This document shows, one piece after another, positions 1 through 27,737 of a stretch of 27,737 bases of DNA. The notes under the pieces were generated by a model, which worked only from the letters and a program-made list of their open reading frames with translations, did no database searches and had not been told where the DNA came from. The translations under genes were made by a program, and so were the position numbers. The DNA is from Opitutia bacterium. GTDB taxonomy: Bacteria; Verrucomicrobiota; Verrucomicrobiae; Opitutales; UBA953. Location: positions 1 through 27,737 of the forward strand of contig CANHZL010000012.1 in assembly GCA_947465345.1 (NCBI GenBank), read 5' to 3'. How positions within the stretch are numbered: the stretch's first letter is position 1; every line of letters starts with the position of its first letter.

Positions 1-61
1 CCTTGCCCGGCTCATCGCACGTCGCCTTGCGAACGGCGGCCATGGCAATGGCCGCCCTACC
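1..61 (-). repeat. REPIN-like element A, cut by window edge
   Basis: This is the REP1 end of a REPIN, in minus orientation. It ends in CCCTACC at 55-61, with the hairpin GGCGGCCAT/ATGGCCGCC just inside. The bases to the left (CCCGGCTCAT... to TTGCGAACGG) resemble the interior of the complete copies at 8044-8163 and 8242-8360. The partner end should therefore lie outside the window. Confidence 0.8.
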
Positions 62-107
62 TGTGCCTTGCCTACCCCGACCCCTGGCCCTACCCCTATC
101 CCTGCTT
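62..107. repeat. 6-bp CCCTRN-type low-complexity array
   Basis: A short degenerate tract with a roughly 6-bp period (CCCTGG, CCCTAC, CCCTAT) lies between the REPIN end and the start of the acetyltransferase gene. Related tracts occur near 7976, 8374, 10098, 17605 and 21479. It fills the whole leader of the downstream gene, and I see no clear promoter in it. Confidence 0.55.
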
Positions 108-117
108 CGCACCCGCC

Positions 118-789
118 ATGTCCTGGACCCTCTATCGCCACTACAAGGGCAACCATTACCTCCGGCTCGGGGTGGCCGCGCATTCCGAGGATCTTTCGCC
201 GCAGGTGGTCTATCGCTGCCTGTATGATAATCCCGCGGCGCGCACGTGGGTCCGCCCGCAGCCGATGTTCGAAGGCGTGATCGAAGACGGACGTCAGCGT
301 TTCACGCCTGTGGGCCGGCTGCGTCTCGTGCAATCCGAAGACCTGCGCGCCGTCCTCACCTTCGGCTTCGATGCGTGGAAGCAAGGGAAGACCTTTGATC
401 AATACTGCGCCGATAAGGATCAGGATCCAAACCATGTCCGCGGTACGCGTTACCTGCTCGAGGATGCTTCCGGCCAGCCCGTCTCCGCCCTGAACGTCCT
501 GCGCTTCCGCGAAAGCCTCGTCGGCCTCGCCTCCGTCGCGACCTCGCCGGAAAACCGCGGCAAGGGCTACGCCTCGCGGCTGCTCCGCGCCGTGATGGAG
601 CTCCATCGCTTCGCCCAGCTCGATACGCGCTTCCTGCTCTTCTCCGAGGTCAAGCCGGCCATCTACGAACGCCACGGCTTCCGCGTGCTACCGGCGGAGC
701 ACCAGCGCTTCCCTAAGGCTCTCGCCATGGCCACGGGCGACACGCCGCTGTCCGAGGCCGAGGCCGAGTTCCTGAAGGCCTATTTCTAG
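118..789 (+). CDS. GNAT family N-acetyltransferase
   Basis: A 223-residue cytoplasmic protein likely to move an acetyl group from acetyl-CoA to an unidentified amine. The GNAT signature is at residues about 140-155, where VATSPENRGKGYASRLL carries the R-G-K-G-Y pyrophosphate-binding loop after the beta-4 strand. It is followed by the usual C-terminal YERHGFRVLP strand-turn (the YxxxGF motif). The N-terminal third (SWTLYRHYKGN...) resembles short DUF1653-like modules that often begin WxxYxHyKG, so this may be a two-part protein; that is a weaker call. ATG at 118 is the first in-frame start with family-like sequence. No Shine-Dalgarno is visible. It converges on the hydrolase gene, with only 9 bp between the two stop codons. 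The substrate cannot be told. Confidence 0.85.
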   Translation: MSWTLYRHYKGNHYLRLGVAAHSEDLSPQVVYRCLYDNPAARTWVRPQPMFEGVIEDGRQRFTPVGRLRLVQSEDLRAVLTFGFDAWKQGKTFDQYCADKDQDPNHVRGTRYLLEDASGQPVSALNVLRFRESLVGLASVATSPENRGKGYASRLLRAVMELHRFAQLDTRFLLFSEVKPAIYERHGFRVLPAEHQRFPKALAMATGDTPLSEAEAEFLKAYF

Positions 790-798
790 ACCAGCGAC

Positions 799-1659
799 TT
801 ACTTCTTCGCCGGCGTAGCCAAGGCGACCTTCGCGAGCCATTCCGCGACCTTGGGGTGTTCGGTTTCGGCGAAAGCGTGGCCGACGCCGGCCATCTCGCT
901 GCCGACGACCGTCGCGCCCTTGGCCTTGAGGGCCTTGGGGAGCTGGCTGGTGGCGGGCTTGTTCGAGCCTTTCTCGGAGCCCCAGCAGGCGTAGGCGAAC
1001 TTGCCCTTAAGGTCGGGGAGATTGCCCTTCGAGGAATAGGCGGTGCCGCCGCCGTCGGCGAAGACGAAGATGCCGAAATAGTCGGTGAGCTTCGGGCCGC
1101 TGCTCAGGCGCAGCATGCCGTCGATGGCGTGGCCGCCATTGCTGAAGCCGGCGATGATCGAGCGGGACTTGTCGATGTTCGGGATGACCTTGGCGATCTC
1201 CTCGAGCATGAAGCGCTGGTAGGCCCAGACCTTGGCGTAATCGCCGACCATGTTCGCTTGGGCGGGATTGTTCGCGCCCTTGGGGTAGGGGAGCCCGACG
1301 AGGATGAAAGCGCCTTCCGGCAGGAACGCGCTGCTCGGACTATTGCCGCCTTCGCCGCCGCCAAGCCAGGCCACCAGAGGATATTTCTTCCCCGGCTCGA
1401 AGCCGGCGGGGAGTTTCACGTTGCAGGCGGCGAGCGCGCCGTGGCGATCCACGGTCAGCTCCGGGAAGTCGAACTTCAGCGAAGCGCCCGGCGCGACCAG
1501 TGCCTTGAGGTCGGCTCGAGGCACGGCTTTCTCCGCCGGGGCTGCGGCCCTGCCTTCGGCCTTCGCCGTAGCCTTCGCTTCCCCCTTGGAGGCAGGCTTA
1601 TCCGCTGCGATCAGCGAGGCGGAAGTCGCGAGCAGGAGGAAGAAGCGGACGAGGCTCAT
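799..1659 (-). CDS. Secreted alpha/beta hydrolase (esterase-like)
   Basis: A 286-residue exported protein. Residues 1-19 (MSLVRFFLLLATSASLIAA) form a signal peptide. Residues 20-48 are an Ala/Lys-rich linker. The rest is an alpha/beta hydrolase fold of the dienelactone-hydrolase/feruloyl-esterase/PHB-depolymerase type. The nucleophile elbow is GFSNGG at 171-176 (Ser173), and the likely catalytic His is H261 in GVGHAF. An oxyanion-type GGG turn lies near 100. The frame extends upstream into menD, but the signal peptide shows that translation starts at the ATG at 1659, 8 bp after the menD stop, so the two are probably cotranscribed. Its function is probably hydrolysis of an ester or carbohydrate-linked acyl group in the periplasm. 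The substrate is unknown, and there is no sign that it acts in menaquinone synthesis. Confidence 0.8.
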   Translation of the reverse strand: MSLVRFFLLLATSASLIAADKPASKGEAKATAKAEGRAAAPAEKAVPRADLKALVAPGASLKFDFPELTVDRHGALAACNVKLPAGFEPGKKYPLVAWLGGGEGGNSPSSAFLPEGAFILVGLPYPKGANNPAQANMVGDYAKVWAYQRFMLEEIAKVIPNIDKSRSIIAGFSNGGHAIDGMLRLSSGPKLTDYFGIFVFADGGGTAYSSKGNLPDLKGKFAYACWGSEKGSNKPATSQLPKALKAKGATVVGSEMAGVGHAFAETEHPKVAEWLAKVALATPAKK

Positions 1660-1667
1660 GGGAAGTC

Positions 1668-3374
1668 TTAGCGGAACGATTTCTGACGCCAGGCGGCGTC
1701 GGCTTCGCGGTCGGTCCGGAATTCGATGACGCGCACGCCTTTGCCGCGGATCTCGAGGAGGCGGCGTAGGTCGTTCCAACCGTCGGCGAGGTCATGGCGT
1801 ACTTTGTGCGCGGCGCAGAGCTTCCCGAGGTCGGCCGCCTGCGGCGTACCCCAGAGTTGTTCGAAGCGGGCGCTCTTCGCGACGGCGAGGTGATTGAAGA
1901 TGCCGCCGCCCTGGTTGTTGATCACGACGACCGTGAGGTCGCCGCGGTGGCCGTAGGCGGAGAGCAGGGCGTTGCTGTCGTGCAGGAAAGTCAGGTCTCC
2001 GCAGAGGAGCACCGTGCGCTTGCCGTCGAGCGACGCGCCGAGCGCAGTCGAGACGGTGCCGTCGATACCATTGGCGCCGCGGTTGGTGAGGATCTCAGGG
2101 CCCGGGCCGGGAGGGTGGTAGAACCACTCGACGTCGCGGATCGGCATGCTGCTTCCGACGAACAGCCGGTCGTCCGGGCCGAGAGCTTCATCGAGCAACG
2201 AAACGACGCGGCCTTCGAAGGGCCAGTCGACGTCCACGATGCGCGTGAGCTTCTTGGCGGCGGCTTTCTGCGCCGACTGCCAGGCCTTGCCGTAAGCGGA
2301 GGCTTTTGACGAAACCTTGTCGCCCGAGGGCACGAGCTGGCCGTCGAGGCGGCTCCAGCGCGAATGGGTGGGGTCGGTGTTCTCGCCGGCGCGGCCGAGC
2401 TGGATGACGGTGATATCGCCTTCCTTCAGCCAAGCGCGCAGGACCTTGCTGGTCGGGAGCGGGCCGACGAACACCGCGGCCTGCGGACGGAGCGACTTGG
2501 CGGCTTTGACGTCGCGCAGGATGAGGTCGTAGCCGGAGATCAGCGAAGCGTCGCCCGCGAGGTCGCCGCGGAGCGTGCCGGCGCCGTCGGCGAGGATCGG
2601 CCAGCCGGTGAGCTGCGAAAGTTCGCGGAGGGCAGCGGCGCTTTCGTCGCGGTCTTCGAAGGCATGCGGGCCGGCCACGATGACGCCGCGGTCCGTCTTC
2701 GGAAGCAGGCTGGCGACCGTGGCGGGCGTGAGGGTCGGACGGACGATGCCGCAGGGCGGGACCGCCGTGAAGGTCTCGAGATTAAGGCCAGCAGGCGCCT
2801 TGAAGCCCTTTTCATGGTCGGTGGGGGCGAGAGGGTCGCGGAAGGGCAGATTGAGGTGTACCGGGCCAGCCAGAGGGCCTTGGGAGCGCTGCCAGGCGTC
2901 GACCAGTAGCTGACGCCAGTGGCGGAGCAGGGTGAGGTCGGTCGAAGGCACGGCGGCCTCGGCGGCCAAGACGGGATATGCGCCATATATTCCGTTCTGG
3001 GTGATCGTCTGCCCCGAGTGACATTCGCGGAGTTCGGGCGGGCGATCGGCGGTCAGGACGAGCAGGGGCGTGGCTGCGAGGCGTGCTTCGACGACGGCGG
3101 GTAGGTAGTTGGCAGCCGCGGTACCGGAGGTGCAGAGCAGGGCGGCGGGGCGACCGGTGGCCTTGGCGAGGCCGAGGGCGATGAAGCCGGCCGAACGTTC
3201 GTCCAGCGCGACGGTCACCAGCAGGCCGGCGGATTCGGCGAAAGCATGGGCCAGCGGCGTCGAGCGCGAACCAGGCGAGATAACCACGTGCGTGAGGCCG
3301 AGCCGGCGGAGGGTGCGCACGCCAACGTCAGCCCAGAGGGCGTTCGTGTTTAGGTGCTTGGTCGCGCGAGCCAT
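1668..3374 (-). CDS. menD: 2-succinyl-5-enolpyruvyl-6-hydroxy-3-cyclohexene-1-carboxylate synthase
   Basis: MenD is a thiamine-diphosphate enzyme that joins isochorismate and 2-oxoglutarate (with decarboxylation) to give SEPHCHC, an early step of menaquinone synthesis. Recognisable parts are VVISPGSRSTPLA near the N-terminus, the catalytic glutamate in ALDERSAGF, LLCTSGTAAANYLPAVVEA, LTADRPPELRECHSGQTI, and the C-terminal ThDP/Mg motif from GDLTFLHDSN to NNQGGGIF. From the ATG at 3374 the protein is 568 residues, normal for the family. An in-frame TTG at 3386 would add four residues and is less likely. The 92-bp gap to the divergent gene at 3467 should hold the promoter. No other men genes are in the window. 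The gene implies menaquinone respiration, which suits the c-type haem proteins nearby. Confidence 0.95.
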   Translation of the reverse strand: MARATKHLNTNALWADVGVRTLRRLGLTHVVISPGSRSTPLAHAFAESAGLLVTVALDERSAGFIALGLAKATGRPAALLCTSGTAAANYLPAVVEARLAATPLLVLTADRPPELRECHSGQTITQNGIYGAYPVLAAEAAVPSTDLTLLRHWRQLLVDAWQRSQGPLAGPVHLNLPFRDPLAPTDHEKGFKAPAGLNLETFTAVPPCGIVRPTLTPATVASLLPKTDRGVIVAGPHAFEDRDESAAALRELSQLTGWPILADGAGTLRGDLAGDASLISGYDLILRDVKAAKSLRPQAAVFVGPLPTSKVLRAWLKEGDITVIQLGRAGENTDPTHSRWSRLDGQLVPSGDKVSSKASAYGKAWQSAQKAAAKKLTRIVDVDWPFEGRVVSLLDEALGPDDRLFVGSSMPIRDVEWFYHPPGPGPEILTNRGANGIDGTVSTALGASLDGKRTVLLCGDLTFLHDSNALLSAYGHRGDLTVVVINNQGGGIFNHLAVAKSARFEQLWGTPQAADLGKLCAAHKVRHDLADGWNDLRRLLEIRGKGVRVIEFRTDREADAAWRQKSFR

Positions 3375-3450
3375 GACATCAGGCAATCCGTCAAGGGTGG
3401 GGCTGTCCAGCGTGGGCTTGGTTTTGGGTTTAAGCCCGGCCGATTAGCCC

Positions 3451-3456
3451 TATTAT
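3451..3456 (+). promoter_or_regulatory. Possible -10 box (TATTAT) for the small membrane protein
   Basis: TATTAT stands out in this GC-rich sequence, ending 10 bp before the ATG at 3467. A sigma-70 start from it would leave a leader of only a few bases. No convincing -35 box is found at the right distance, so this is a weak call. Confidence 0.25.
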
Positions 3457-3466
3457 TTCCAGACAA

Positions 3467-3805
3467 ATGGAGGTCTTCCTGCATCTGTTGCCCCTCGTCG
3501 GGTCCTTCGTGTTCGCCGGCTTACTGCTCCACGCGATCTTCTGGGGTATGACGTTCACCGTCGACGAAGCGTATACGCGCGTGCGCGTCTATGGTTGGAC
3601 TGTGCGTAAGATAGCCCACAGCGATGTCGAGTGGGCAGTCCAGGATTGGTGCTTCTGGAATGAGCATTACACCAATACCGTGAACCCCAAGAAGATGATC
3701 CTGCTCCGTCGTCGCACCGGTGTGTTCAAAAATTTTCTCATCAGCCCGCCTTCGCCGTCGGAGTTCCTCAAGGAACTCGCGGCTAAGGGCGTGACGATCC
3801 GTTAA
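3467..3805 (+). CDS. Small single-pass membrane protein, unknown function
   Basis: A 112-residue protein. Residues about 4-28 (LHLLPLVGSFVFAGLLLHAIFW) form one transmembrane segment. The remaining 80 residues are soluble and alternate short strands with charged turns (VDEAYTRVRVYGWTVRKI, KKMILLRRRTGVFKNFLISP), ending in a helix (SEFLKELAAKGVTIR). The pattern resembles small bacterial PH-like domain proteins, but that is only an impression. The stop at 3803-3805 is 5 bp before the ATG of the TIM-barrel gene, so the two are probably an operon. The leader has no Shine-Dalgarno. It is a real gene by its position, coherent composition and tight spacing. Confidence 0.7.
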   Translation: MEVFLHLLPLVGSFVFAGLLLHAIFWGMTFTVDEAYTRVRVYGWTVRKIAHSDVEWAVQDWCFWNEHYTNTVNPKKMILLRRRTGVFKNFLISPPSPSEFLKELAAKGVTIR

Positions 3806-3810
3806 ACCTT

Positions 3811-4647
3811 ATGCGTCCACTCTTCGCTTTCTTCTGTTCCGCCGTCGCGCTGGTCGCCGCGGATCGGCCTGCTTTCTTCGCCATGGACACGGCGGCTCGT
3901 CTCGCGCCGACGGAATGCGCGCAGGTGCTGGCCGATCTGGGTTATGCGGGCTTGGGCGGCCGCCCGGCCACGGCCAAGGCGCATGCGACGTCTTTGCAGG
4001 CCAAGGGCCTCGTCTTCTACAACGGCTACCACGTCACGAACTTCGGGCATGGCCAGACGGAGCTACCGGCTGATCTCACCAAGGCGGTCGACGACCTCGC
4101 CGGCACGGGGGGCACGCTTTGGCTGGGTGTCAATCAGGTCGCTTATCCGGCTGGGGTCAGGGCTGGGCCTGAATACGGCGACACGATTGTCGTGCCTCAG
4201 CTCAAGCAGCTGCTGGCCTATGCGAAGCCGAAGGGCGTGAAGGTGTCCCTTTATCCTCATGCCGGTTTCTGGGCGGCGCAGTTCGAAGTCTGCCTCCGGG
4301 TCGCGAACAAGGTCGACGACCCCGCGCTTGGCGTGACGTTCAACCTTTGCCACTGGCTCAAAGTCGAGGGTTCGGAGCGCGACCCGTTGCCACTCATCAA
4401 GGAGTCTCTGCCGCGCCTGAACTTCGTCACCATCAACGGCGCCGACACCGGTGACACACGGAAGCTCGGCTGGGATAAACTCATCCAGCCGCTGGGCCGC
4501 GGGAATTATGACGTCGGTGCGTTCGTCGCGAAGACTCGCACCGCTGGTTATCGCGGCCCGTTTGGATTCCAGGGCTTCGGCATCAAGATGGACTCAAACG
4601 AACTCCTGAAGGAGACGATGGCAGGTTGGCAGAAGATGGTGAGGTAG
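3811..4647 (+). CDS. Secreted sugar phosphate isomerase/epimerase-like TIM-barrel protein
   Basis: A 278-residue protein of the xylose-isomerase-like TIM-barrel group (AP-endonuclease family 2 fold). It begins with a signal peptide, MRPLFAFFCSAVALVAA, so it acts outside the cytoplasm, as many verrucomicrobial and planctomycete relatives do. The LADLGYAGLGG strand-turn near 41-50 is typical. Likely metal ligands or substrate contacts are H150 (SLYPHAGFW) and H181 (FNLCHWLKVEGSE). The C-terminal part, GYRGPFGFQGFGI, is the usual closing strand. Substrate and reaction cannot be told; some relatives act on keto-sugars or inositols. It follows the small membrane protein by 5 bp. Its stop codon TAG (4645-4647) lies inside the GGTAGGG boundary of the adjacent REPIN, so the element has set the gene's 3' end. 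Confidence 0.82.
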   Translation: MRPLFAFFCSAVALVAADRPAFFAMDTAARLAPTECAQVLADLGYAGLGGRPATAKAHATSLQAKGLVFYNGYHVTNFGHGQTELPADLTKAVDDLAGTGGTLWLGVNQVAYPAGVRAGPEYGDTIVVPQLKQLLAYAKPKGVKVSLYPHAGFWAAQFEVCLRVANKVDDPALGVTFNLCHWLKVEGSERDPLPLIKESLPRLNFVTINGADTGDTRKLGWDKLIQPLGRGNYDVGAFVAKTRTAGYRGPFGFQGFGIKMDSNELLKETMAGWQKMVR

Positions 4648-4743
4648 GGCGGCCATTGCCATGGCCGCCGTTCGCCTAAGCCAGCACGCGGTGCTGCCCC
4701 TGCCTTGATTCATGCTATGTCGTGACGCGGTCCCGACCCTACC
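4643..4743. repeat. REPIN-like element B (REP1 + REP3)
   Basis: The element is GGTAGGG at 4643-4649 followed by the REP1 hairpin, a short interior, then a second hairpin ending CCCTACC at 4737-4743. The second end is not REP2. It carries GTCG-T-GAC/GTC-C-CGAC around GCG, and the same sequence stands alone at 21056-21080. The element overlaps the end of the upstream coding region. Confidence 0.8.
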
Positions 4744-4761
4744 TGTTGAAGGTCGCCCAAT

Positions 4762-4787
4762 AAAAAACCCCGGTTGCCCGGGGTTTT
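4762..4787. terminator. Bidirectional rho-independent terminator
   Basis: Stem CCCCGG/CCGGGG with loop TTGC is flanked by a run of six A on the left and TTTT on the right. It can end transcription from both sides, the TIM-barrel gene on the plus strand and the DUF3500 gene on the minus strand. Confidence 0.88.
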
Positions 4788-4808
4788 GTCTGCTGCCTGT
4801 CGTCAGGC

Positions 4809-6068: not shown

Positions 6069-6069
6069 C

Positions 6070-7929
6070 TCAGGCGCTCTCTGCCTCGCTCAGCTTCTGC
6101 GCGGCCTGTTCCCAGGCGGCGGTGGCGGCTTGGAGGGCATTAATCGTATCTCGGAGGCGGGCGTTCAATTGCGGGAGATTGACGCCACCGGTGTATGTGG
6201 CCGGGTCGGCGAGTTCGGCGGTGATCTGCGCCTGCTTGGCTTCCAGTTCCGAGACCTGCTGTTCGCACTTAGTGACATCGGCTTTCAGCTTGCGGATATC
6301 CGCAGCGGAGGGTTTCACGGGGGCCTTCGGCTTTTCTGCCTTTGGCGCTTCATCCTGTTTCGGACGGGCGTCGGTGAAGCCGGCGGTCAGCGCGGCGCGC
6401 TCGTTGCCGGACTTAGATTTCTCGAGGTAGTAGGCGTAGTCGCCGGCGTACTGCGTCAGGCGTCCGGAGTGCACGTGCAGGACGGTCTTGGCAATCTCGC
6501 GGATGAAGTGGACGTCGTGACTCACGAAGTAGAGCGTGCCTTCGTAAGTCTTCAGGGCGGCGATGAGCGCGTCGATCGACATGATGTCGAGGTGCGTCGT
6601 CGGTTCGTCCATGAGCAGGAAGTTGGGCGGATTGATCATCAGCTTCACTAGGGCGAGACGGGATTTCTCTCCGCCCGAAAGGACCGAGACGCGCTTGTTC
6701 ACGTCGTCTTTACGGAAGAGGAACGTGCCGAGCATGCCGCGGGCCTGTTGTTCAGTGAGGCCGTTCTCCGTGGTGCGGAGTTCCATGACGTTCTCGAGGA
6801 CGGTCAGCTTCGGGTTGAGGTTGTCGACGCGGTTCTGGGCGAAGTAACCGGTGATGACGTTGCCGCCTTCCTCGCGCACACCCCCATTAATCGGGATGAC
6901 GCCGGCGAGGATCTTGAGGAGGGTCGATTTACCCGCGCCGTTGGGGCCGACGAGCACCGTGCGCTGACCGCGTTCACACTCGAAATTCAGGTCTTTATAG
7001 ACGACGTGGTCGCCGTACGACTGCTGCACATGCTCCAGCTTCATGACCTTGAGGCCAGAGCGCGGAGGCTGCGGGAAACGGAACTGAATCTTCTTCAGGT
7101 CGTCCTCAGGCTCATCAATCGCGGCCTCTTCGAGGCGGGCAATCTGCTTCTCCTTGGACTTCGCACGGGAAGCCATCGAAGCCTTGGCACCGAAGCGGTC
7201 GACGAAGGTCTGGAGGTGGGCGATTTCGCGCTGCTGGTTCTTGAACATCGCCTGTTGGCGATCTTTACGGGCCACGCGTTCAAGGATGAAGTCGTCGTAG
7301 TTACCGGAGTACTCGTGCAGACGCTGGCCGCGCAGTTCGATGGTGCCGGTGCAGAGTGCGTTGAGGAAGGCACGGTCGTGTGAGATCACCACGAGGCCTC
7401 CCGGATAGCGCGTGAGGTAATCCTGGAACCAGAGCAGGGCTTCGAGGTCGAGGTGATTCGTCGGTTCGTCGAGCAGCAGGAGCGTCGGTTCGCTGACGAG
7501 CAGACGGGCGAGGTGCGCGCGCATGACCCAGCCACCAGAAAAGGTCTTGGCGACTTTGTCGTGGTCGGTCTCGCGGAAACCGAGGCCTGCGAGTATCTTC
7601 TTTGCGCGGGGCTCGAGCGTATAGTCGATGTCCCAGTCATCGTCGTTTTCGGGCTCAAGTTTGCCGCCGCTCGTCGCAATCTGGAGAATCGTCTCGTCTC
7701 CGGCTGGCGCGCTTTCCTGGGGCAGGAAGCCGAAGTTCGCTCCGCGTTCCCATTCGATGAGGCCTTCATCCGGGTTGTCCTTGCCGAGGATGATGTTGAA
7801 AAGGGTCGATTTGCCCGCGCCGTTGGCGCCGACGAGCCCGAGCCGGTCCGTCCGGGCAATATTCAGCGAGACCTCCGCGAACAAGGTGCGGGGCCCGTAG
7901 GACTTGGAAATATTGGCAATCGTCAGCAT
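6070..7929 (-). CDS. ABC-F family ATPase
   Basis: A 619-residue soluble protein with two ABC domains and no membrane segments, typical of ABC-F proteins that act on ribosomes or translation factors. Domain 1 has Walker A GANGAGKST (residues 34-42), the signature FSGGWVMRAHLARLL and Walker B LLLLDEPTNHLDL. A charged linker (about 240-310, rich in Arg, Lys and Gln) matches the P-site tRNA-interaction motif region. Domain 2 has GPNGAGKST, LSGGEKSRLAL and LLMDEPTTHLDI. Both Walker B motifs end in Glu, so both sites should hydrolyse ATP. The C-terminal 80 residues hold a Lys/Pro-rich stretch and a coiled coil, as in Uup-like members. The frame continues upstream through the repeats, but the family start is MLTIANISKSYG, so the ATG at 7929 is used. 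The exact subfamily is unclear. Confidence 0.93.
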   Translation of the reverse strand: MLTIANISKSYGPRTLFAEVSLNIARTDRLGLVGANGAGKSTLFNIILGKDNPDEGLIEWERGANFGFLPQESAPAGDETILQIATSGGKLEPENDDDWDIDYTLEPRAKKILAGLGFRETDHDKVAKTFSGGWVMRAHLARLLVSEPTLLLLDEPTNHLDLEALLWFQDYLTRYPGGLVVISHDRAFLNALCTGTIELRGQRLHEYSGNYDDFILERVARKDRQQAMFKNQQREIAHLQTFVDRFGAKASMASRAKSKEKQIARLEEAAIDEPEDDLKKIQFRFPQPPRSGLKVMKLEHVQQSYGDHVVYKDLNFECERGQRTVLVGPNGAGKSTLLKILAGVIPINGGVREEGGNVITGYFAQNRVDNLNPKLTVLENVMELRTTENGLTEQQARGMLGTFLFRKDDVNKRVSVLSGGEKSRLALVKLMINPPNFLLMDEPTTHLDIMSIDALIAALKTYEGTLYFVSHDVHFIREIAKTVLHVHSGRLTQYAGDYAYYLEKSKSGNERAALTAGFTDARPKQDEAPKAEKPKAPVKPSAADIRKLKADVTKCEQQVSELEAKQAQITAELADPATYTGGVNLPQLNARLRDTINALQAATAAWEQAAQKLSEAESA

Positions 7930-7975
7930 CGAAGGGGCGTTAAAGAGGCGGGAAGGCGGAAGGGCAAGAGAAAGG

Positions 7976-8012
7976 GCTGGGGGAGGGCTAGGGCTGGGGC
8001 TAGAAGCGGGAA
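7976..8012. repeat. 6-bp TAGGGC-type array
   Basis: A degenerate GCTGGGGGAGGGCTAGGG-type tract with about 6-bp spacing lies in the ABC-F leader. It is related to the tracts at 10098-10125 and 17605-17634. Confidence 0.5.
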
Positions 8013-8043
8013 GGGCTGACCACCCCTGGTCAGCCGTTTCATG

Positions 8044-8163
8044 GGTAGGGCGGCCATTGCCATGGCCGCCGTTCGCAGCGGCACGTGCCATGAGCCGGGC
8101 ATGATTACCGACCATTCCAAGCGTCCGTCCGCCCACGGACGTGATGGCAATCACGTCCCTACC
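8044..8163. repeat. REPIN-like element C (REP1 + REP2a)
   Basis: A 120-bp element bounded by GGTAGGG (8044-8050) and CCCTACC (8157-8163). The left end carries the REP1 hairpin. The right end carries GGACGTGAT/ATCACGTCC (8137-8158) around GGCA. A second possible hairpin, CGTCCG/CGGACG with loop CCCA (8126-8141), shares bases 8137-8141 with it. The copy at 8242-8360 is almost identical. Confidence 0.9.
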
Positions 8164-8176: not shown

Positions 8177-8237
8177 GATTATCCGGTTTCCCTTTGCTGC
8201 TTTGCCTAACCGCTAACCGCCAACCGCTACCACCTTA
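8177..8237. repeat. Half copy of the CAAAGGG/ACCGG palindrome with GCGGTTGGC units
   Basis: CCGGTTTCCCTTTGCTG is followed by CCTAACCGCTAACCGCCAAC and CGCTACCACC. The left arm found at 10237 and 13296 is missing. The same right half plus junction (CCACCTTACATGGGTAGGG) precedes REPIN E at 10362. Confidence 0.75.
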
Positions 8238-10097: not shown

Positions 10098-10125
10098 TAG
10101 GGCTAGGGCTGGGGCCAGGGCTAGG
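10098..10125. repeat. 6-bp TAGGGC array
   Basis: TAGGGC units repeat at 6-bp spacing (TAGGGCTAGGGCTGGGGCCAG and on). It resembles a telomere-like hexamer array, but is short and degenerate. Confidence 0.55.
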
Positions 10126-10127
10126 AA

Positions 10128-10179
10128 AGAGGGCAGATGGCTGAATCGATGACAGAGGGCAGATGACAGAGGGCAGATG
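10128..10179. repeat. Degenerate 12-bp-type array
   Basis: Alternating GAGGGCAGATGG, CTGAATCGATGA and CAGAGGGCAGAT units share words (CTGAATCGATGACAGAGG) with the arrays at 20901 and 26161. The period is less regular here. Confidence 0.6.
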
Positions 10180-10223: not shown

Positions 10224-10236
10224 AAATCATGACACA

Positions 10237-10316
10237 CAAAGGGAAACCGGAGACCGGATGATTGGCTGGGGTTTCATATGTCCGTAGCCAACTACCCGGT
10301 CTCCGGTTTCCCTTTG
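10237..10316. repeat. CAAAGGG/ACCGG palindrome, complete
   Basis: The 21-bp arms at 10237-10257 and 10296-10316 are perfect inverted copies. Inside them, GATTGGCT and AGCCAAC can also pair. The whole 80 bp could extrude as a cruciform or fold as a long RNA hairpin. Partial copies occur at 8177, 13296, 17899, 21262 and 27591. Confidence 0.85.
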
Positions 10317-10361
10317 CTGATTAGCCTAACCGCTAACCGCCAACCGCTACCACCTTACATG

Positions 10362-10478
10362 GGTAGGGCGGCCATTGCCATGGCCGCCGTTCGCAGCGGC
10401 GCGTGCCCTGAGCCGGGCAGGATGATTGACCTTATGATGTCCGTCCGCCCACGGACGCGACGCAGTCGCGCCCCTACC
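10362..10478. repeat. REPIN-like element E (REP1 + REP2b)
   Basis: GGTAGGG (10362-10368) to CCCTACC (10472-10478). The left end is REP1. The right end has a changed stem, GGCGCGAC/GTCGCGTCC (minus strand) around TGC, in place of the ACGTGAT/ATCACGT stem of REP2a. The second hairpin CGTCCG/CGGACG is kept. The alaS stop codon lies 6 bp beyond. Confidence 0.85.
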
Positions 10479-13249: not shown

Positions 13250-13407
13250 GAAGCGGTTGGCGGTCAGCGGTTGGCGGATGGGCTGATACCAGATTCAAAG
13301 GGAGACCGGAAACCGGGAAGGATGCTGCGGCCATAAAAGGCCCATGCCAATCATCCGGTCTCCCTTTGCTGTTTCACCTATCCGCTAACCGCCAACCGCT
13401 ACCACCC
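13250..13407. repeat. CAAAGGG/ACCGG palindrome with outer GCGGTTGGC arms
   Basis: The inner arms CAAAGGGAGACCGGA (13296-13310) and its perfect inverse (13354-13368) are flanked by GCGGTTGGCGG units on the left (13251-13279) and the inverted CCGCTAACCGCCAACCGCT on the right (13382-13400). The module is therefore about 150 bp of nested inverted repeats. Confidence 0.8.
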
Positions 13408-13413
13408 GACATG

Positions 13414-13531: not shown

Positions 13532-13550
13532 CGATGCAGGCGTAAGGACT

Positions 13551-13633
13551 CATCCATCCAGTCCTCCATGCAGTCCTCAACGCAGTCCTCAATTCAGTCC
13601 TCTGCCATCTGTCATCGACTCAGTCCTCCCCAG
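13551..13633 (-). repeat. 12-bp tandem array, GAGGACTG type (minus orientation)
   Basis: On the minus strand the units read GAGGACTGAATT, GAGGACTGCGTT, GAGGACTGCATG and so on at 12-bp steps. Unlike the other arrays, it runs in the opposite direction on the plus strand. Confidence 0.75.
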
Positions 13634-17604: not shown

Positions 17605-17634
17605 GATAGGGGTAGGGGCAGGGGGAGGGGTGGG
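17605..17634. repeat. G-rich 6-bp-type array
   Basis: GATAGGGGTAGGGGCAGGGG and following G-runs. Five G-runs lie close together on the plus strand, so a G-quadruplex is possible on that strand. Confidence 0.5.
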
Positions 17635-17638
17635 CGGA

Positions 17639-17693
17639 AGAGGACTGAGTTGATGACTGCATAGAGGACTGAGTGGAGGGCTGAATGGATGAT
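17639..17693 (+). repeat. 12-bp tandem array
   Basis: Units GAGGACTGAGTT, GATGACTGCATA, GAGGACTGAGTG, GAGGGCTGAATG and GATGATG lie at 12-bp steps. They belong to the same family as 20901-21025 and 26161-26247. Confidence 0.75.
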
Positions 17694-17695
17694 GC

Positions 17696-17738
17696 TCCGC
17701 CACCTGCTACCTGGGGCCGCCACCCGCCACCCGAAGCG
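17696..17738. repeat. 43-bp GCCACC element
   Basis: CCGCCACCTGCTACCTGGGG followed by a CCGCCACCCGCCACCCGAAG half. It matches 10180-10223. It lies between the 12-bp array and REPIN G. Confidence 0.65.
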
Positions 17739-17869: not shown

Positions 17870-18028
17870 AGCGGTTGGCGGATAGAATAAGCCAAAAACA
17901 GAAACCGGAGACTGGGTGATTGGCTGGGATGTCTTATGCTCGCAGCCAACTTTCCGGTTTCCGGTCTCCCTCTGCTTGTTTGGTTTGCCCAACCGCCAGC
18001 CGCTAACCGCCAACCGCTAATACCTTTC
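17870..18028. repeat. CAAAGGG/ACCGG palindrome, diverged
   Basis: The left part is AGCGGTTGGCGGAT and then CAGAAACCGGAGAC (17899-17912). The right part is TTTCCGGTTTCCGGTCTCCC and then CCAACCGCCAGCCGCTAACC. ATTGGCTGGG and CAGCCAAC in the middle can pair. The module ends at the 3' end of the YHYH gene. Confidence 0.75.
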
Positions 18029-20897: not shown

Positions 20898-20900
20898 GGC

Positions 20901-21025
20901 GTTGAGGGAATTGAAGGGAGAATTGAGGGCTGAATCGAGGACTGAGTTGAGGGCTGAATGGAGGGCTGAATGGATGTCTGCATCGATGACAGAGGACTGA
21001 ATCGATGACGGAGGACTGAATGGAA
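20901..21025 (+). repeat. 12-bp tandem array in the aldo/keto reductase leader
   Basis: About ten units at a 12-bp step: GAGGGCTGAATC, GAGGACTGAGTT, GAGGGCTGAATG (twice in a row), GATGTCTGCATC and then GATGACAGAGGACTGAATC-type units. It is the longest array in the window and starts 3 bp from the start codon of the gene transcribed away from it. Confidence 0.85.
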
Positions 21026-21261: not shown

Positions 21262-21302
21262 ACAACAGCCAATCATCCGGTTTCCGGTCTCCCTTTGCTG
21301 TT
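21262..21302. repeat. Half copy of the CAAAGGG/ACCGG palindrome
   Basis: CAGCCAATCATCCGG followed by TTTCCGGTCTCCCTTTGCTG. This is the right half of the palindrome, placed between REPINs H and I. Confidence 0.65.
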
Positions 21303-22580: not shown

Positions 22581-22602
22581 GGGTATGAGTTAGGACATAC
22601 CC
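22581..22602. promoter_or_regulatory. Inverted repeat abutting the DUF6807 start codon
   Basis: GGGTATG (22581-22587) and CATACCC (22596-22602) form a perfect 7-bp inverted repeat with an 8-base spacer, directly upstream of the ATG at 22580. It could be an operator in the divergent region or an mRNA hairpin at the start codon. Confidence 0.4.
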
Positions 22603-22718
22603 CAGCCCCAAAGGTTGCCAATCTGAAAGGGGCCAACTTAACCAAGGAACGGCGTTTGCGTATCAGGATTTCGGCTTCCTTAAGTCCGCCTCCGCCCTAA
22701 TCGTGTCCGCACCCCGCC

Positions 22719-25700
22719 ATGCGATTCCTCGCGCTCTTCTTCGTTTCCGCCTGCCTCGCCGCCCCGGCCCTCCCGCCTGGTCCGGCCGAACGCGTCGCGC
22801 CTTCCTCCTATAAGTCAGGCCAGACGGCGGCCGAGGCGATGAAGACGATGTCCCTTCCCGCAGGCTTCCAGCTCTCGCTCGTCGCCGGCGAGCCGAAGGT
22901 GGTTCAGCCGATTGCGATGTGCTTCGACGAACGCGGCCGCCTCTGGGTCGTGGAAGGGTTGTCCTATCCGAAGAAGCGCCCGGACGGCACCGGTCCCGAT
23001 CGCATCCTGATTTTGGAAGACGTGAACAAGGACGGCTCCTATGCGAAGGTCACGGTCTTCAAGGAAGGACTCAATCTCGTCTCGGGCATCGAAGTTGGCC
23101 ACGGCGGTGTCTGGGTCGGCGCGGCCCCGGAGTTCCTTTTCATTCCGAAGGATGCCAATGACCAGGCCGGCACCCCGGTGGTGCTGCTCGACGGTTGGGG
23201 CTTCCATGACACGCATGAGACGCTCAACAGCTTCGTCTGGGGGCCGGACGGCTGGCTCTACGGTAATCACGGCGTCTTCACCCACTCAGTCGTCGGTCGG
23301 CCCGGCACGCCCGAGGGGAAGCGCGTGAAGATCAACGCGGGCGTCTGGCGCTTCCATCCAACCCGTCACGTCTTCGAGGTCTTCGCCGAAGGTACGAGTA
23401 ATCCATGGGGCCTCGACTACGATGCGCGCGGCGAATTCTTCAACACGGCCTGCGTCATCCCGCACCTCTATCATATCCTGCCCGGCGCCCGCTATCAGCG
23501 TCAGGCCGGCCAGCATTTCAATCCTTTCACCTACGACGACATCAAGACGATCGCTGACCACGCCCACTACGCGGGCTCGCGCATCCACCAGCCGACGGTT
23601 TCGAAGATCCCCGAGAGTACCGACAGCATCGGTGGCGGCCACGCCCACTCTGGGCTCGCCATCTACAATGGCGATAACTTCCCGGCCGCCTATCAGGGTA
23701 TGCTCATCTTTGGTAATCTCCATGGGCATCGCCTCGTCTCCGATCAGGTCGTGCCCGAGGGCAGCGGCTACGCTGGTCATCACGGCAACGACTTCCTGCG
23801 CAGCAACGACGCCCACTTTATCCCGGTATCGCAACGCGTGGGCCCAGACGGCGCCCTGTACGTCAGCGACTGGACGGACAAGCAGGTCTGCCATAATGGA
23901 AACACCGAAATCTGGGACCGCACTAATGGCCGCATCTATCGCGTGAGCTACGGTAATCCGGTCTCCCGTGCCCGCGACCTCGCGACCTTGTCGGACCTCG
24001 AGCTAGTCGGCCTCGCGCTGGATGATGCCAACGAGTATTATGTCCGCCAGGCTCGTAAGGTGCTCGCCGAGCGCGGTCTTTCGGGTCGGACGATCGCCGC
24101 CGAAGCACGCGCCCAGCTCCGCACCACGCTGTCGGCCGCCGGCCCCGCCGTCCGTCGCCTGCGCGCCCTCTGGGTGCTGCAGTCCGCCAACCTTCTGGAC
24201 GACGCCGTGCTGGCCGCCGCGCTGAACGACGCCGAGCCGGCGCTTCGTGCCTGGGCTGTCCGTCTGATCGCTCAGCAGTGGACTGCCGGCGTGCCGGCCT
24301 TGGCGAAGCTCGCTCGATCGGAATCATCGCCTGTCGTCCGTCGCGAACTCGCCTCCGCCCTATCCGTCCTGCCGCTCTCCGAGCGCGCTGCCATCGCCAC
24401 CGCCTTGCTTGCCGTCGCGGATGACGCGAAAGACCACAATATCCCGCTGCTGCTTTGGTACGGTATCGAGCCGCTAGTCGGGGCGGATGCCGATCAGGGG
24501 CTCGCCCTCGCGGACGTCTCCAAAATCGAGGTGATCACGGATTATATTTACCGTCGTCTCGCCGGCGACGAGGTCGCTCGCGGCCGCGTGCTCGCTCTTG
24601 CCATTAAATCGTCCGACGCCCCTCGCCGTGCCAAGATTGTCAGCCGCGTCGTCGACGGCGTCCGCCAGGCGGGTGCCTTCCGGGCCCCGGCTGGTTGGCC
24701 GGAAATCGCCGCGTTGCTCCGCAAGGACGCCTCGCCGGAGGCGATCGCTAATATTAACGAACTCGACGCCCTCGCCGGCGACGAAGCCAGCCGCGCTTTC
24801 TATCGCGGTCATCTCGCCGACGAAAAGGCGCCGCTCCCGGCTCGCCAGCGTGCGCTCGCCGTGCTCGTCGCTGCGCGCGATCGCGCCGCCGCCCCAGTGA
24901 TTCATAAGGTGTTCGCCGAGCAGACCCCGCCGTCCTTCCGCCGCGCGCTCATCCAGGCGCTTGCGACTGTCGGCGACGCCGCCTCGCCCGCCGTGCTACT
25001 CGCCCGTCTGGCAACTTTCACTCCGGAACAGTCGGCCGATGCGGTCGCCGCCCTCGCGGTTAACGCCGTCGGCGGCAAGGCGCTGCTCGCCGCCGTCGCC
25101 GCAGGCAAAGCCGAGAAGGCCTTACTTTCGCCGCTCGTCGTGCGCCAGTTGAAGTCACTCGGTGACAAGGAGCTCGACGCCCAGCTCACCGCGGTGGTCG
25201 GCGTGGTCAATGTGACGAAGGCCGACTTCGCCAAGAACAAGGCGAAGTACGAGGCGATGCTCAAACCCGAGTCCGTGCGCAAGGGTGACATCGCGGCCGG
25301 TCGCCAGCTCTTCACTTCGACCTGCGGCATCTGCCATACCTTCGGCTATATCGGCAATCAGGTCGGCCCCGGCCTCGCCGGCTCTAATATCGGCAAGCTC
25401 GACTACTTCCTCGAGAACGTGCTCAACCCCAACGGCGTCATCGGCAAGGATTACCAGCTCAACGTCTTTAAGCTAAAGAGTGGCGCAACCATGAGTGGGA
25501 TTGTCCAGTTCGAGGACGCGCAATCGTTCCGCCTGGCGCTGCCAGGTGGAACGAAGTTCACCGTCGCGAAGAGCGAGGTCGAGAAGCGCGAGGTCCTGGC
25601 GATATCCCTCATGCCTGAAGGCCTGCTCGACGCGCTGACCAAGGAGCAGGTGATCAATCTCGTAGCTTACCTGCAGTTCCCCGACGGCTTCCCCACTGGC

Positions 25701-26159
25701 GCCCCCGGTGTCTGGCGTCTTGAGGGCGCGCTTGAAGGCGAAAGCCTCAAGGTGCTGTCCGTCACCGGCGGCAAGACCAGCAATCAGAAGATGTCTGGCT
25801 TCAAGGCGAGCCGCTGGAGTGGCGACGACCACGTCTGGTGGACCGGCGGCAAGGTTGGTGATACCCTGACGTTGGCTGTGCCGGTCGCGGTCAAGGGCGC
25901 CTATGAGGTGAAGTTCGTTTGTACCAAGGCCCATGATTACGGTGCCTTCGAACTCCGTCTCGACGGCAAGTTACTCGGTGCGGAAGGTTACGATTTCTAC
26001 AACCCCGCCGAAGTGGTCACCACCGGCGAACTCAATGGCGGTCACCACGAGCTCGACGTCGGTGAGCATCGCCTCGAGATCAAAATTCTTGCGCCGAATC
26101 CCGCCGCCACGCCGAGGAATATGTTTGGGTTGGATTATCTGAAGCTGGAGAGGAAGTGA
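22719..26159 (+). CDS. PVC-type membrane-bound dehydrogenase with c-haem and CBM-like domain
   Basis: An 1146-residue exported protein with signal peptide MRFLALFFVSACLAAPA. Residues about 30-420 form the TIGR02604-like dehydrogenase propeller (MCFDERGRLWVVEGLSYP, GWGFHDTHETLNSFVWGPDGWLYGNHG, AIYNGDNFPAAYQGMLIFGNLHGHRL, RVGPDGALYVSDWTDKQVCHNG). Residues about 420-830 are HEAT-like Ala/Leu-rich helices. Then comes a TIGR02603-like haem domain with CGICH at 869-873, followed by GPGLAG. Residues about 997-1146 are a C-terminal beta-sandwich like those appended to glycosidases (VWWTGGKVGDTLTL, AYEVKFVCTKAHDYGAFELRLDGKLLG, FGLDYLKLERK), so a carbohydrate link is likely. The likely role is oxidation of a sugar outside the cytoplasm, with electrons taken by the haem. 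It is divergent from the DUF6807 gene. Confidence 0.9.
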   Translation: MRFLALFFVSACLAAPALPPGPAERVAPSSYKSGQTAAEAMKTMSLPAGFQLSLVAGEPKVVQPIAMCFDERGRLWVVEGLSYPKKRPDGTGPDRILILEDVNKDGSYAKVTVFKEGLNLVSGIEVGHGGVWVGAAPEFLFIPKDANDQAGTPVVLLDGWGFHDTHETLNSFVWGPDGWLYGNHGVFTHSVVGRPGTPEGKRVKINAGVWRFHPTRHVFEVFAEGTSNPWGLDYDARGEFFNTACVIPHLYHILPGARYQRQAGQHFNPFTYDDIKTIADHAHYAGSRIHQPTVSKIPESTDSIGGGHAHSGLAIYNGDNFPAAYQGMLIFGNLHGHRLVSDQVVPEGSGYAGHHGNDFLRSNDAHFIPVSQRVGPDGALYVSDWTDKQVCHNGNTEIWDRTNGRIYRVSYGNPVSRARDLATLSDLELVGLALDDANEYYVRQARKVLAERGLSGRTIAAEARAQLRTTLSAAGPAVRRLRALWVLQSANLLDDAVLAAALNDAEPALRAWAVRLIAQQWTAGVPALAKLARSESSPVVRRELASALSVLPLSERAAIATALLAVADDAKDHNIPLLLWYGIEPLVGADADQGLALADVSKIEVITDYIYRRLAGDEVARGRVLALAIKSSDAPRRAKIVSRVVDGVRQAGAFRAPAGWPEIAALLRKDASPEAIANINELDALAGDEASRAFYRGHLADEKAPLPARQRALAVLVAARDRAAAPVIHKVFAEQTPPSFRRALIQALATVGDAASPAVLLARLATFTPEQSADAVAALAVNAVGGKALLAAVAAGKAEKALLSPLVVRQLKSLGDKELDAQLTAVVGVVNVTKADFAKNKAKYEAMLKPESVRKGDIAAGRQLFTSTCGICHTFGYIGNQVGPGLAGSNIGKLDYFLENVLNPNGVIGKDYQLNVFKLKSGATMSGIVQFEDAQSFRLALPGGTKFTVAKSEVEKREVLAISLMPEGLLDALTKEQVINLVAYLQFPDGFPTGAPGVWRLEGALEGESLKVLSVTGGKTSNQKMSGFKASRWSGDDHVWWTGGKVGDTLTLAVPVAVKGAYEVKFVCTKAHDYGAFELRLDGKLLGAEGYDFYNPAEVVTTGELNGGHHELDVGEHRLEIKILAPNPAATPRNMFGLDYLKLERK

Positions 26160-26160
26160 G

Positions 26161-26247
26161 CGGAGGACAGAGGACGGAGGACTGAATCGATGACAGAGGG
26201 CTGAATCGATGACTGCGTTGAGGACTGAATGGAGGGCTGAATGGATG
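26161..26247 (+). repeat. 12-bp tandem array
   Basis: Units such as GGAGGACTGAATC, GATGACAGAGGG, CTGAATCGATGA, CTGCGTTGAGGA, CTGAATGGAGGG and CTGAATGGATGA. The array begins one base after the stop codon of the dehydrogenase gene. Confidence 0.8.
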
Positions 26248-26292
26248 AGTAAGCGGAGACGCTTCAGGTGGCGGGCGTTAAGCGATGCATCG

Positions 26293-26409
26293 GGTGGGGA
26301 TGTGATGACATCACGTCCGTGGGCGGACGGACGTGGAATTGGTAAAGAGTCTGCCCGGTAAATCCAACGTGACGTGGCGAACGGCGGCCATGGCAATGGC
26401 CGCCCTACC
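26293..26409. repeat. REPIN-like element J (worn REP2a + REP1)
   Basis: GGTGGGG (26293-26299, one base off GGTAGGG) to CCCTACC (26403-26409). The REP2 stem is slightly changed, GATGTGAT/ATCACGTC, with loop GAC. REP1 is intact in inverted orientation. CGTCCG/CGGACG around TGGG is kept. Confidence 0.8.
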
Positions 26410-26436
26410 TTAGGGCCGAGGGTATTGATTGTCTTG

Positions 26437-26526
26437 GGTAGGGCGGGCTCTGCGTGCCCGCCGTTGAGCCGATCGAGAGTCGAATCTCACATGGCTAACG
26501 GCGGCCATGGCAATGGCCACCCTACC
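26437..26526. repeat. REPIN-like element K (REP4 + REP1)
   Basis: GGTAGGG (26437-26443) with REP4 to CCCTACC (26520-26526) with REP1, 90 bp. Its interior is shorter than in H and L. One arm of the REP1 stem has GCCAC where the others have GCCGC, which disrupts a pair. Confidence 0.85.
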
Positions 26527-26541
26527 TCATTGTGCGCGCGG

Positions 26542-27504
26542 TCAGAATCCCGCGCCTTTGACCTTCGTCTTCACGCGCAGGAGTCGATCCTTGGACGTGA
26601 TGTAGAGGGTGTGGCCGTCATCGCCCCAGGCGAGGTTCGCCGTCGGCTGGCCGCAAAGGATGGAGCCGAGGTGCTTGCCTTCGGGAGTGACAATCAGGAC
26701 GCCGCCCGGACCGGTGGTCCAGATATTACCCTGGGCGTCCAGCTTCAAGCCGTCGCAGGAACCGCCGCGGGTCTTGCTCTTCAGAGGTGCCGCGAGGAAG
26801 ACATCGCGCAGGCCGGAGCCATCGAGGTTGCACACGGAGACGCGGGGATTCTTGCCGTCCGAGATCGCGAGGTAGAGGGATTTCTGGTCGAGGCTGAGGG
26901 CGATGCCGTTGGGCCACTGCACTTCCTTGGTCACAAGGGAAACCTTGCCGTCGGTCGATAGCTTATAGACGCCATGGTAGGCGACCTCGGTTTTTTCGCC
27001 CTTAGGAATACCGTAGGGCGGGTCGGTGAAGAAGACCGTTCCGTCCTTGGTCACGCAAAGGTCGTTGGGGCTATTGAAGCGGGCGCCGTCCTGATTCTTC
27101 GCCGCAAGAACCTGGAATTTACCATCACCGCCGAGGCGGGCGACGCGACGGGTGCCGTGCTGGCAAAGCAGCATGTTGCCCTGGGGGTCGACGGAGAGTC
27201 CATTCGAGCCTTGGTTCGCAGAAGGCGCGTCGGTGCCGCTGGGCTTGAGGAAGACGGAAGCCTTCGCATCGCCTTCGATCCACTGGTAGGCGACGTTGTT
27301 GGGCACGTCCGAGAAGACGATGCGTCCCTTATACCAGACGGGACCTTCGGACCACGAATAGCCTCCATTCGAGATGGTCTCGATCTTGGCGCCGCTGTCT
27401 AGGAGCGCATCCAAGGCAGGGTCGAGCTTCTCGATGGATTGCTGGGGGCCTTCGGCGGCGAAGGCGGTGACGAGGGAGAGGAAGAAGGCGGGGAGGAGCT
27501 TCAT
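26542..27504 (-). CDS. Secreted SMP-30/gluconolactonase-type lactonase
   Basis: A 320-residue exported six-bladed propeller of the SMP-30/gluconolactonase/LRE-like family. Residues 1-17 (MKLLPAFFLSLVTAFAA) are a signal peptide. The Ca-binding and catalytic positions of the family are present: Glu53 in WSEGPVW, Asn147 in FNSPNDL, Asn199 in WPNGIAL, Asp251 in SCDGLKLD. Further family strands are FTDPPYG and GVYKLSTDGKVSLV. The likely reaction is hydrolysis of a sugar lactone to the acid in the periplasm or outside, which would follow a sugar dehydrogenase. The reading frame extends 12 residues upstream through a worn REP3, but the signal peptide shows the start at 27504. No Shine-Dalgarno. Confidence 0.88.
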   Translation of the reverse strand: MKLLPAFFLSLVTAFAAEGPQQSIEKLDPALDALLDSGAKIETISNGGYSWSEGPVWYKGRIVFSDVPNNVAYQWIEGDAKASVFLKPSGTDAPSANQGSNGLSVDPQGNMLLCQHGTRRVARLGGDGKFQVLAAKNQDGARFNSPNDLCVTKDGTVFFTDPPYGIPKGEKTEVAYHGVYKLSTDGKVSLVTKEVQWPNGIALSLDQKSLYLAISDGKNPRVSVCNLDGSGLRDVFLAAPLKSKTRGGSCDGLKLDAQGNIWTTGPGGVLIVTPEGKHLGSILCGQPTANLAWGDDGHTLYITSKDRLLRVKTKVKGAGF

Positions 27505-27513
27505 GGTTGAATG

Positions 27514-27530
27514 GGTAGGGTGGGGACCGA
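27514..27530 (+). repeat. Worn REP3 fragment in the lactonase leader
   Basis: GGTAGGGTGGGGACCGA resembles the start of REP3 (21056-21080), but the hairpin is lost. It lies 10 bp from the lactonase start codon. Confidence 0.4.
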
Positions 27531-27559
27531 GCGGAGGCAAATCAAAGGTAGGGGTGATG

Positions 27560-27622
27560 GCGGTTGGCGGTTAGCGGTTGGGAACATCAGCAAGCAAGGG
27601 GAGACCGGTTGATTGGCTGATG
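27560..27622. repeat. Partial CAAAGGG/ACCGG palindrome (left half)
   Basis: GCGGTTGGCGGTTAGCGG is followed by CAAGGGGAGACCGG and TTGATTGGCTG. This is the left half of the module, next to REPIN L. The right arm is missing. Confidence 0.6.
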
Positions 27623-27627
27623 TCTTG

Positions 27628-27735
27628 GGTAGGGCGGGCTCTGCGTGCCCGCCGTTGACCGAATCCGGCGTAGCTTCTCGATCAAGGTGCGCAGCTCTTG
27701 AGGCGAACGGCGGCCATGGCAATGGCCGCCCTACC
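27628..27735. repeat. REPIN-like element L (REP4 + REP1)
   Basis: GGTAGGG (27628-27634) to CCCTACC (27729-27735), 108 bp. It is an inverted copy of element H (21150-21257). By eye the interiors differ at about one position (CACCTCGATC against CACCTTGATC on the same strand). Confidence 0.9.
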
Positions 27736-27737
27736 CA

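Follow-up and report, generated by a model that had tools for sequence, protein, structure and literature searches.

REPIN–RAYT families with unequal ends in Opitutae and related bacteria

RESULTS

GTAG-tagged hairpin pairs in the window

The DNA analysed here, a stretch of 27,737 nucleotides (contig CANHZL010000012.1) that we call the window, carries ordinary chromosomal genes. Pfam matches among the 17 ORFs scanned include a TPP enzyme, ABC_tran, NAD kinase, alanyl-tRNA synthetase (hence our reading of the gene as alaS), DUF7133 with cytochrome c, aldo/keto reductase, DUF6807 and SMP-30/gluconolactonase. Rfam gave no match in the window at the gathering thresholds.

The motif GGTAGGG occurs 29 times in the 27.7 kb against an expectation of 2.54, and none of 100 shuffled sequences reached 29. 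The original prediction had listed 13 elements or parts of elements ended by this motif, and we found it at all these places except 26293, where the variant GGTGGGG stands. When we searched for perfect stems of 7 bp or more preceded by GTAG, we obtained 19 hairpins, with stems of 7 or 9 bp that begin directly after GTAG, as had been predicted. Eleven of these are type A (GGCGGCCAT-TGCC), five are type B (GGACGTGAT-TGCC) and three are type C (GGCGGGC-TCTGCGT). Reading of the sequence gave 11 pairs whose hairpins face inward, together with a half pair and a fragment (Table 1). The main pair, of about 118 bp, is GGTAG-GGCGGCCAT-TGCC-ATGGCCGCC facing GGTAG-GGACGTGAT-TGCC-ATCACGTCC. Every one of the 11 pairs includes type A (once in degenerate form), which faces B or a B-like end, C or D. 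Thus, the expectation of a hairpin inside each end was confirmed, but the two ends are not of one hairpin kind: their stems are unlike in 11/11 pairs.

Table 1. Hairpin elements of the window
Element	Start	End	Strand	Basis
Half REPIN; REP-A hairpin at 35-61, other end presumably past the window edge	1	61	-	hairpin scan, sequence reading
REPIN A/D; end D imperfect	4643	4743	+	hairpin scan, sequence reading
REPIN A/B	8044	8163	+	hairpin scan, sequence reading
REPIN A/B	8242	8360	+	hairpin scan, sequence reading
REPIN A/B-like; B-like end imperfect; 5 bases from the alaS ORF 3′ end	10362	10478	+	sequence reading
REPIN A/B	13414	13531	+	hairpin scan, sequence reading
REPIN B/A; A at right	17746	17863	-	hairpin scan, sequence reading
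End D fragment, lone	21056	21084	+	motif count, sequence reading
REPIN A/C	21150	21257	+	hairpin scan, sequence reading
REPIN A/B; beside terminator-like sequence	21319	21437	+	hairpin scan, sequence reading
REPIN B-like (GTGG)/A	26293	26409	-	hairpin scan, sequence reading
REPIN C/A; A degenerate	26437	26526	-	hairpin scan, sequence reading
REPIN C/A	27628	27735	-	hairpin scan, sequence reading

By ORF reading the elements are intergenic and most of them lie near the 3′ end of a gene; this reading allows for starts placed too far upstream in the ORF list (for example, 8154 for ORF 6070-8154). ORF 3811-4647 ends within the GGTAGGG of the element at 4643, its stop codon being the TAG at 4645-4647.

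Other repeats share the intergenic regions. One is devoid of GTAG and consists of inverted GGGAAACCGGAGACCGG...CCGGTTTCCGGTCTCCC arms, after which CCGCTAACCGCCAACCGC often stands (8182-8236, 10235-10356, 13294-13408, 17871-18026 and 21266-21299); it is present also in relatives, for example at loci L197 and L198. Another is degenerate and recurs about every 12 nt (GAGGACTGAATGGA...; 10123-10163, 13548-13609, 17615-17703, 20900-21019 and 26164-26259), and similar stretches were seen in relatives.

Conservation of the hairpin and of the pair

We compared 301 unique hairpins, for which the GG...AT frame and at least seven of nine base pairs were required. The stem is perfect in 277 of them, with 10 different perfect stems, and the loop is TGCC in 266. 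Stem positions 3, 4, 6 and 7 vary on both sides, mostly as between types A and B, and the changes are paired (C-G/A-T, G-C/C-G/T-A, C-G/T-A and G-C/C-G, respectively). The GG base, the apex AT and the loop are nearly invariant, AT being fixed by the filter. The hairpin is under structural constraint.

The consensus of 91 unique CGGxx/ACGTG elements has conserved ends and a variable middle, with the exception of a CCGGGCA block and a CGTCCGCCCACGGACG motif adjoining end B. Inverted pairs with GTAG outermost and a spacer between the hairpins numbered 78 in loci L001–L083 and the window together, and 73 of these were 118–120 nt long.

Distribution beyond the window

The original prediction called for further copies elsewhere, and these are plentiful. 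The exact 27-mer of hairpin A was found in 83 stretches when genome contigs were scanned; as this broad scan used one exact 27-mer, there may be carriers in other phyla as well. Most of the records are titled Opitutae, Opitutus or Verrucomicrobia, and some Akkermansia or Polynucleobacter. The titles Akkermansia muciniphila and Polynucleobacter meluiroseus stand on hairpin carriers L021, L030, L081, L011, L019 and L046; two genomes among these, G014 and G015 (L021 and L011), belong to the family of genome G001, so that such titles may be wrong.

The strict pattern GGTAGGG-N5-ATTGCCAT-N5-CC was present in all the 21 genomes reached from 21 of the 83 loci, whereas the reversed pattern, used as the control, gave no match. 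Twenty of these genomes have 2 to 116 strict-pattern hairpins and one (G006) has a single copy. As the 21 genomes were picked for the hairpin, the family-wide and class-wide scans carry more weight. Within G001's family, 33 of 79 genomes carry the hairpin, as do 5 of 384 genomes drawn from the class, all five being also in the family set.

The predicted density of about one element per 2 kb holds in the window and does not extend to whole genomes of relatives: there are 17 strict-pattern hairpins in the 27.7 kb of the window and 116 in the 2.5 Mb of G001, the richest relative. The high density in the window may be local. Hairpin counts on the contigs syntenic with the alaS region did not support a hot spot common to all relatives, with 4 of 15 hairpins in G010 (contig C37), 1 of 14 in G007 (contig C5) and at least 21 of 116 in G001 (contig C47). 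Contig C47 (57.8 kb; L107, L108 and L226) has both the alaS and the aldo/keto reductase regions of the window.

RAYT genes bracketed by the hairpins

A Y1/RAYT gene flanked by the same hairpins had been proposed as the mobilising gene, and we found such genes at two loci. At L105 (G001), the RAYT is a 178-codon open frame (about 150 aa from the likely start) flanked on either side by two A/B pairs, and its stop codon lies directly before the GGTAGGG of the next pair. A relative at L163 (G012) has one pair on each side, A with the B variant GGATGTGAT. The L105 protein resembles the solved TnpA_REP 4er8 (E 7.4e-9); its scores of 67.3 bits for NCBIfam NF047646 and 21.5 for Pfam are below both cut-offs (80 and 23, respectively). 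These were the only RAYTs found to be bracketed by the window's hairpin family in the 21 genomes. In the window itself no RAYT was found among the 17 ORFs scanned, and the motif P[DNE]H[VLIMF]H was absent in six frames.

Y1_Tnp (Pfam) matches occurred in 13 of the 21 genomes and NF047646 matches (E ≤ 0.001) in 17, those in four genomes being above the 80-bit cut-off. Hairpin carriers G002 (60 hairpins), G003 (43), G009 (27) and G016 (6) had no NF047646 match; most of the genomes are titled as MAGs, so that genes may be missing from them. Using phmmer matches (E ≤ 1e-4) to four seed RAYTs and counting identical proteins once, we obtained 35 RAYT ORFs from the 21 genomes. GTAG hairpins lie within 450 bp of 31 of these, and four are without. 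The HxH motif and the Tyr were present in all the 13 aligned RAYTs.

Of 384 genomes of the class, 175 have relatives of the L105 RAYT. Among 30 class RAYT loci, 15 have GTAG hairpins within 300 bp (two of these are the loci of L105 and L127 again) and 15 do not. Twelve of 23 Y1_Tnp loci were without a GTAG hairpin in the stretch examined, seven of the twelve being frames of 308–325 aa. The RAYTs of L158, L159, L147, L144 and L132 are enclosed by two identical inverted single REPs (GGGCAGCAC-CGC or GGACAGCAC-CAC) about 540–590 bp apart, an IS-like arrangement that is unlike the REPIN-RAYT-REPIN loci.

RAYT clades and hairpin types

We labelled RAYTs by the commonest nearby GTAG or GTGG hairpin, the label (apex type) being the last two stem bases and the loop, and built an IQ-TREE tree of 44 RAYTs. 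The input had 60 rows after removal of three RAYTs shorter than 130 aa and the re-fetched loci L167 and L168; the 44 rows had at least 120 residues and either a hairpin label or a place among four chosen unlabelled rows. For 28 rows with 15 apex types, the tree required 14 label changes, the fewest possible (mean of 200 shuffles 21.8, lowest 19). With all the 40 labelled rows and 24 types, 25 changes were required, two above the minimum (shuffles: mean 33.4, lowest 30). As related RAYTs share descent with their neighbourhoods, this congruence by itself indicates linkage and co-descent, and not recognition.

Filled, empty and otherwise filled sites

The site downstream of alaS (10362-10478) was aligned between the window and 9 of 30 fetched loci. 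A pair of the window's family is present in the window, L200 and L226, and L197, L198, L203 and L206 are empty of such pairs. The site is otherwise filled in L199 and L210 by another GTAG element and in L211 by a related variant. The junction is not clean, because the window copy lacks neighbouring sequence that is present in the empty sites. These insertion differences occur among genomes 91–94% alike to the window over the alaS region. In L200, the REPIN is immediately followed by an extra GGCTGACC...GGTCAGCC hairpin, as though one insertion had taken place next to, or within, an earlier one.

Both flanking genes of the aldo/keto reductase–DUF6807 gap were present in 11 of 30 fetched loci. 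The A/B element of the window ends here at the CAAACAAAAAAGGGG of a terminator-like sequence. In L233, similar flanks stand without any insert. L227, L229, L230, L231 and L235 lack a hairpin pair. L228 and L241 have a GGCCGAGCA/GGCCAACCA-type element, L238 and L240 a GGACGGCTG/GGCGGGTTG element (with the left tag GTGG in L238) and L237 an imperfect GGTAGGG element. Judged from orthologous sites that are filled, empty or otherwise filled, the elements appear to have moved. Sites taken by different REPIN families at one point also offer material for studying the choice of insertion site.

In the flanks, we observed a weak consensus GCCT(T/C)(G/A) upstream of GGTAG at end A and a purine at -1. 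CT or CA occurs at most 6 nt upstream of GGTAG at 85 of 113 A ends and 76 of 113 B ends, compared to 48% of random 6-mers. Direct duplications of 2–9 bases beside the ends were not in excess over shuffled flanks (112 pairs).

Unequal ends and predicted folding

Head-to-head pairs were collected from all fetched loci, counting same-context pairs once. The near-identical, symmetrical halves of the Pseudomonas fluorescens style were not found: 176 of 177 pairs (59 pair types in all) have unlike stems, the exception being in L127. A part of these data was chosen for REP-A or RAYTs, and the pairs are not independent, since whole elements have presumably been copied. Stems were unlike in 13/13 pairs from synteny-fetched loci and in 13/13 from class RAYT loci. 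The loop is common to both partners in 126 of the 177 pairs. We count this asymmetry as a variant of the REPIN and not as grounds for exclusion, because heterodimers are common among GTAG repeats (PMC3733652).

In silico folding of 163 unique elements with DNA energy parameters predicted two hairpins for 97, a mixed outcome for 18 and one long hairpin for 48, and the idea that unequal stems always prevent the long hairpin was therefore rejected. In the window's TGCC-like group (n = 102) the corresponding numbers are 67, 16 and 19. When the right REP was replaced by a copy of the left, all the 163 were predicted to form the long hairpin, and the median gain was 16.7 kcal/mol. Some groups fold long as they are, namely A/C (12/12), GGACGGCTC/GGCGGGCTC (6/6) and GGTCAGCAC/GGTCGGCAC (4/4).

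DISCUSSION

The repeats of the window form a family that has its own RAYTs and is polymorphic in its insertions, and RAYT clade and hairpin type are congruent. Copies outside the window, the RAYTs bracketed at L105 and L163 and the variably filled sites together make this a RAYT-linked REPIN population, which bears out the REPIN and RAYT reading of the original prediction. Very probably, the repeats are non-autonomous REPINs with two different GTAG hairpins, spread in trans by a RAYT (TnpA_REP). They belong to a set of REPIN–RAYT families in Opitutae and relatives that is of a known kind and has a strict pattern of unequal ends.

A possible course of events can be drawn from the biochemistry of RAYTs in E. 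coli, Stenotrophomonas and Marinomonas, where GTAG and the stem-loop are read on single strands, loop bases are read too in two perfect-palindrome systems, and cleavage occurs at a nearby CT or CA (PMC8266576). By analogy, the RAYT would read GTAG and the stem-loop on single-stranded DNA and cut close by, at CT (or CA); the element would be joined elsewhere. Unequal stems would hinder end-to-end pairing and favour two separate hairpins (the ‘clover’) over one long hairpin.

Other origins of the repeats have to be weighed against this. The inverted GGTAGGG...CCCTACC ends could suggest MITEs with terminal inverted repeats, mobilised by a conventional double-strand (DDE) transposase. The negative test for direct duplications disfavours this, the flanks have CT/CA and a purine at -1 instead, and the linked transposase is of the HUH-Tyr kind; we regard such an origin as extremely improbable. 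It is also conceivable that the hairpins are retained for a host function, at transcript 3′ ends, in mRNA stability or in supercoiling, and spread only passively. The intergenic position of the window elements, mostly near a gene 3′ end, and stems that remain paired despite sequence change would agree with it. However, a single intergenic spot, vacant in some relatives, is otherwise occupied by elements of three different REPIN families (the window's included), and the bracketing of RAYT genes is specific, so that retention without active spread seems quite improbable to us. A host function and mobility are nevertheless compatible with each other.

The repeats might instead be relics, once driven by a RAYT and now inert, which are inherited or copied by recombination. 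Several carriers without a detectable RAYT and the degenerate copies in the window (at 10362, 26293 and 26437) point in this direction, whereas the insertion differences among genomes so closely alike over the alaS region and the many exact hairpin copies point away from it. We consider this unlikely, and prefer the spread of REPINs by a RAYT acting in trans.

Why the ends are unequal is a separate question. Most GTAG and CGTC families favour heterodimers, a fact for which PMC3733652 finds ‘no obvious explanation’. In P. entomophila and P. putida, homodimers make up the majority of GTAG-1 dimers (PMC3733652), which indicates that equal ends are possible elsewhere. It is proposed in PMC3116915 (Figure S11 legend) that RAYTs probably recognise the ‘clover’ form and probably do not recognise the long hairpin; unequal ends would thus favour the usable form. 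We tentatively suggest, with considerable doubt, that unequal ends are a functional requirement, the RAYT reading the apex and loop, which the two ends usually have in common, as a family code and the differing stems keeping the element in the usable two-hairpin form. The clover as the sole cause is disfavoured by the A/C, GGACGGCTC/GGCGGGCTC and GGTCAGCAC/GGTCGGCAC groups, which fold long. Protection from degradation (SbcCD), a reading offered in PMC3733652, may account for the unequal ends, and so may a founder effect in which each family descends from one unequal ancestor. If a functional requirement is true, it would answer the question raised in 2013 of why repeats of this sort are mostly heterodimers. 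As equal-ended pairs are nearly absent (1/177), the preference is directly testable through the clover-versus-hairpin idea, and about 15 RAYT-linked hairpin types, unlike in loop and stem, in one bacterial family constitute a natural test set for how RAYTs read their targets.

As in IS200/IS605 transposons, hairpins lie near the ends of the element and the enzyme is of the HUH-Tyr kind; in contrast to those transposons, the REPINs have no gene, and the RAYT is presumed to act in trans. The supposition that no such family had been described for the phylum was not borne out. Di Nocera et al. (2013; PMC3733652) report that Opitutus terrae, a verrucomicrobium, is ‘highly enriched in GTAG repeats’ and name its elements GTAG-17, GTAG-19 and GTAG-20. 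Apart from that paper, we found none on Verrucomicrobia REPs among the titles and abstract beginnings screened, and the word ‘Verrucomicrobia’ is absent from the main text of PMC6006769. Our elements have what marks a GTAG REP, a short stem-loop (7 or 9 bp) beside GTAG in many copies per genome; published stems are mostly 6–9 bp and reach 13 (PMC3733652).

The O. terrae repeats resemble those of the window in the GTAG tag, the hairpin, the dimers and the verrucomicrobial host, whose name is close to that of the Opitutae records. They differ in the distance between partners, which is 1–2 bp in GTAG-17 HH dimers and about 64 bp in our elements, in the GTGG tag of most GTAG-20 copies, and in that O. 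terrae had the highest number of repeats inside genes, the window's being read as intergenic (PMC3733652). This comparison is one of published descriptions, and the hairpin of the window may be among these O. terrae elements. The REPINs of P. fluorescens SBW25 (Bertels and Rainey 2011; PMC3116915) likewise have two inverted REPs and a spacer as the unit and lie next to RAYTs, but they are symmetrical with a consensus that forms one long hairpin, whereas the end stems differ here. The BIMEs of E. coli are like our elements in that unlike REPs are paired (y with either z1 or z2) and that the Y1 enzyme, TnpA_REP, reads GTAG (PMC8266576). E. coli REPs, however, require a bulge in the stem, while the window hairpins are perfect palindromes with nearly fixed loop bases, and are in this respect nearer to the group 3 systems of Stenotrophomonas and Marinomonas than to that of E. 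coli (PMC8266576).
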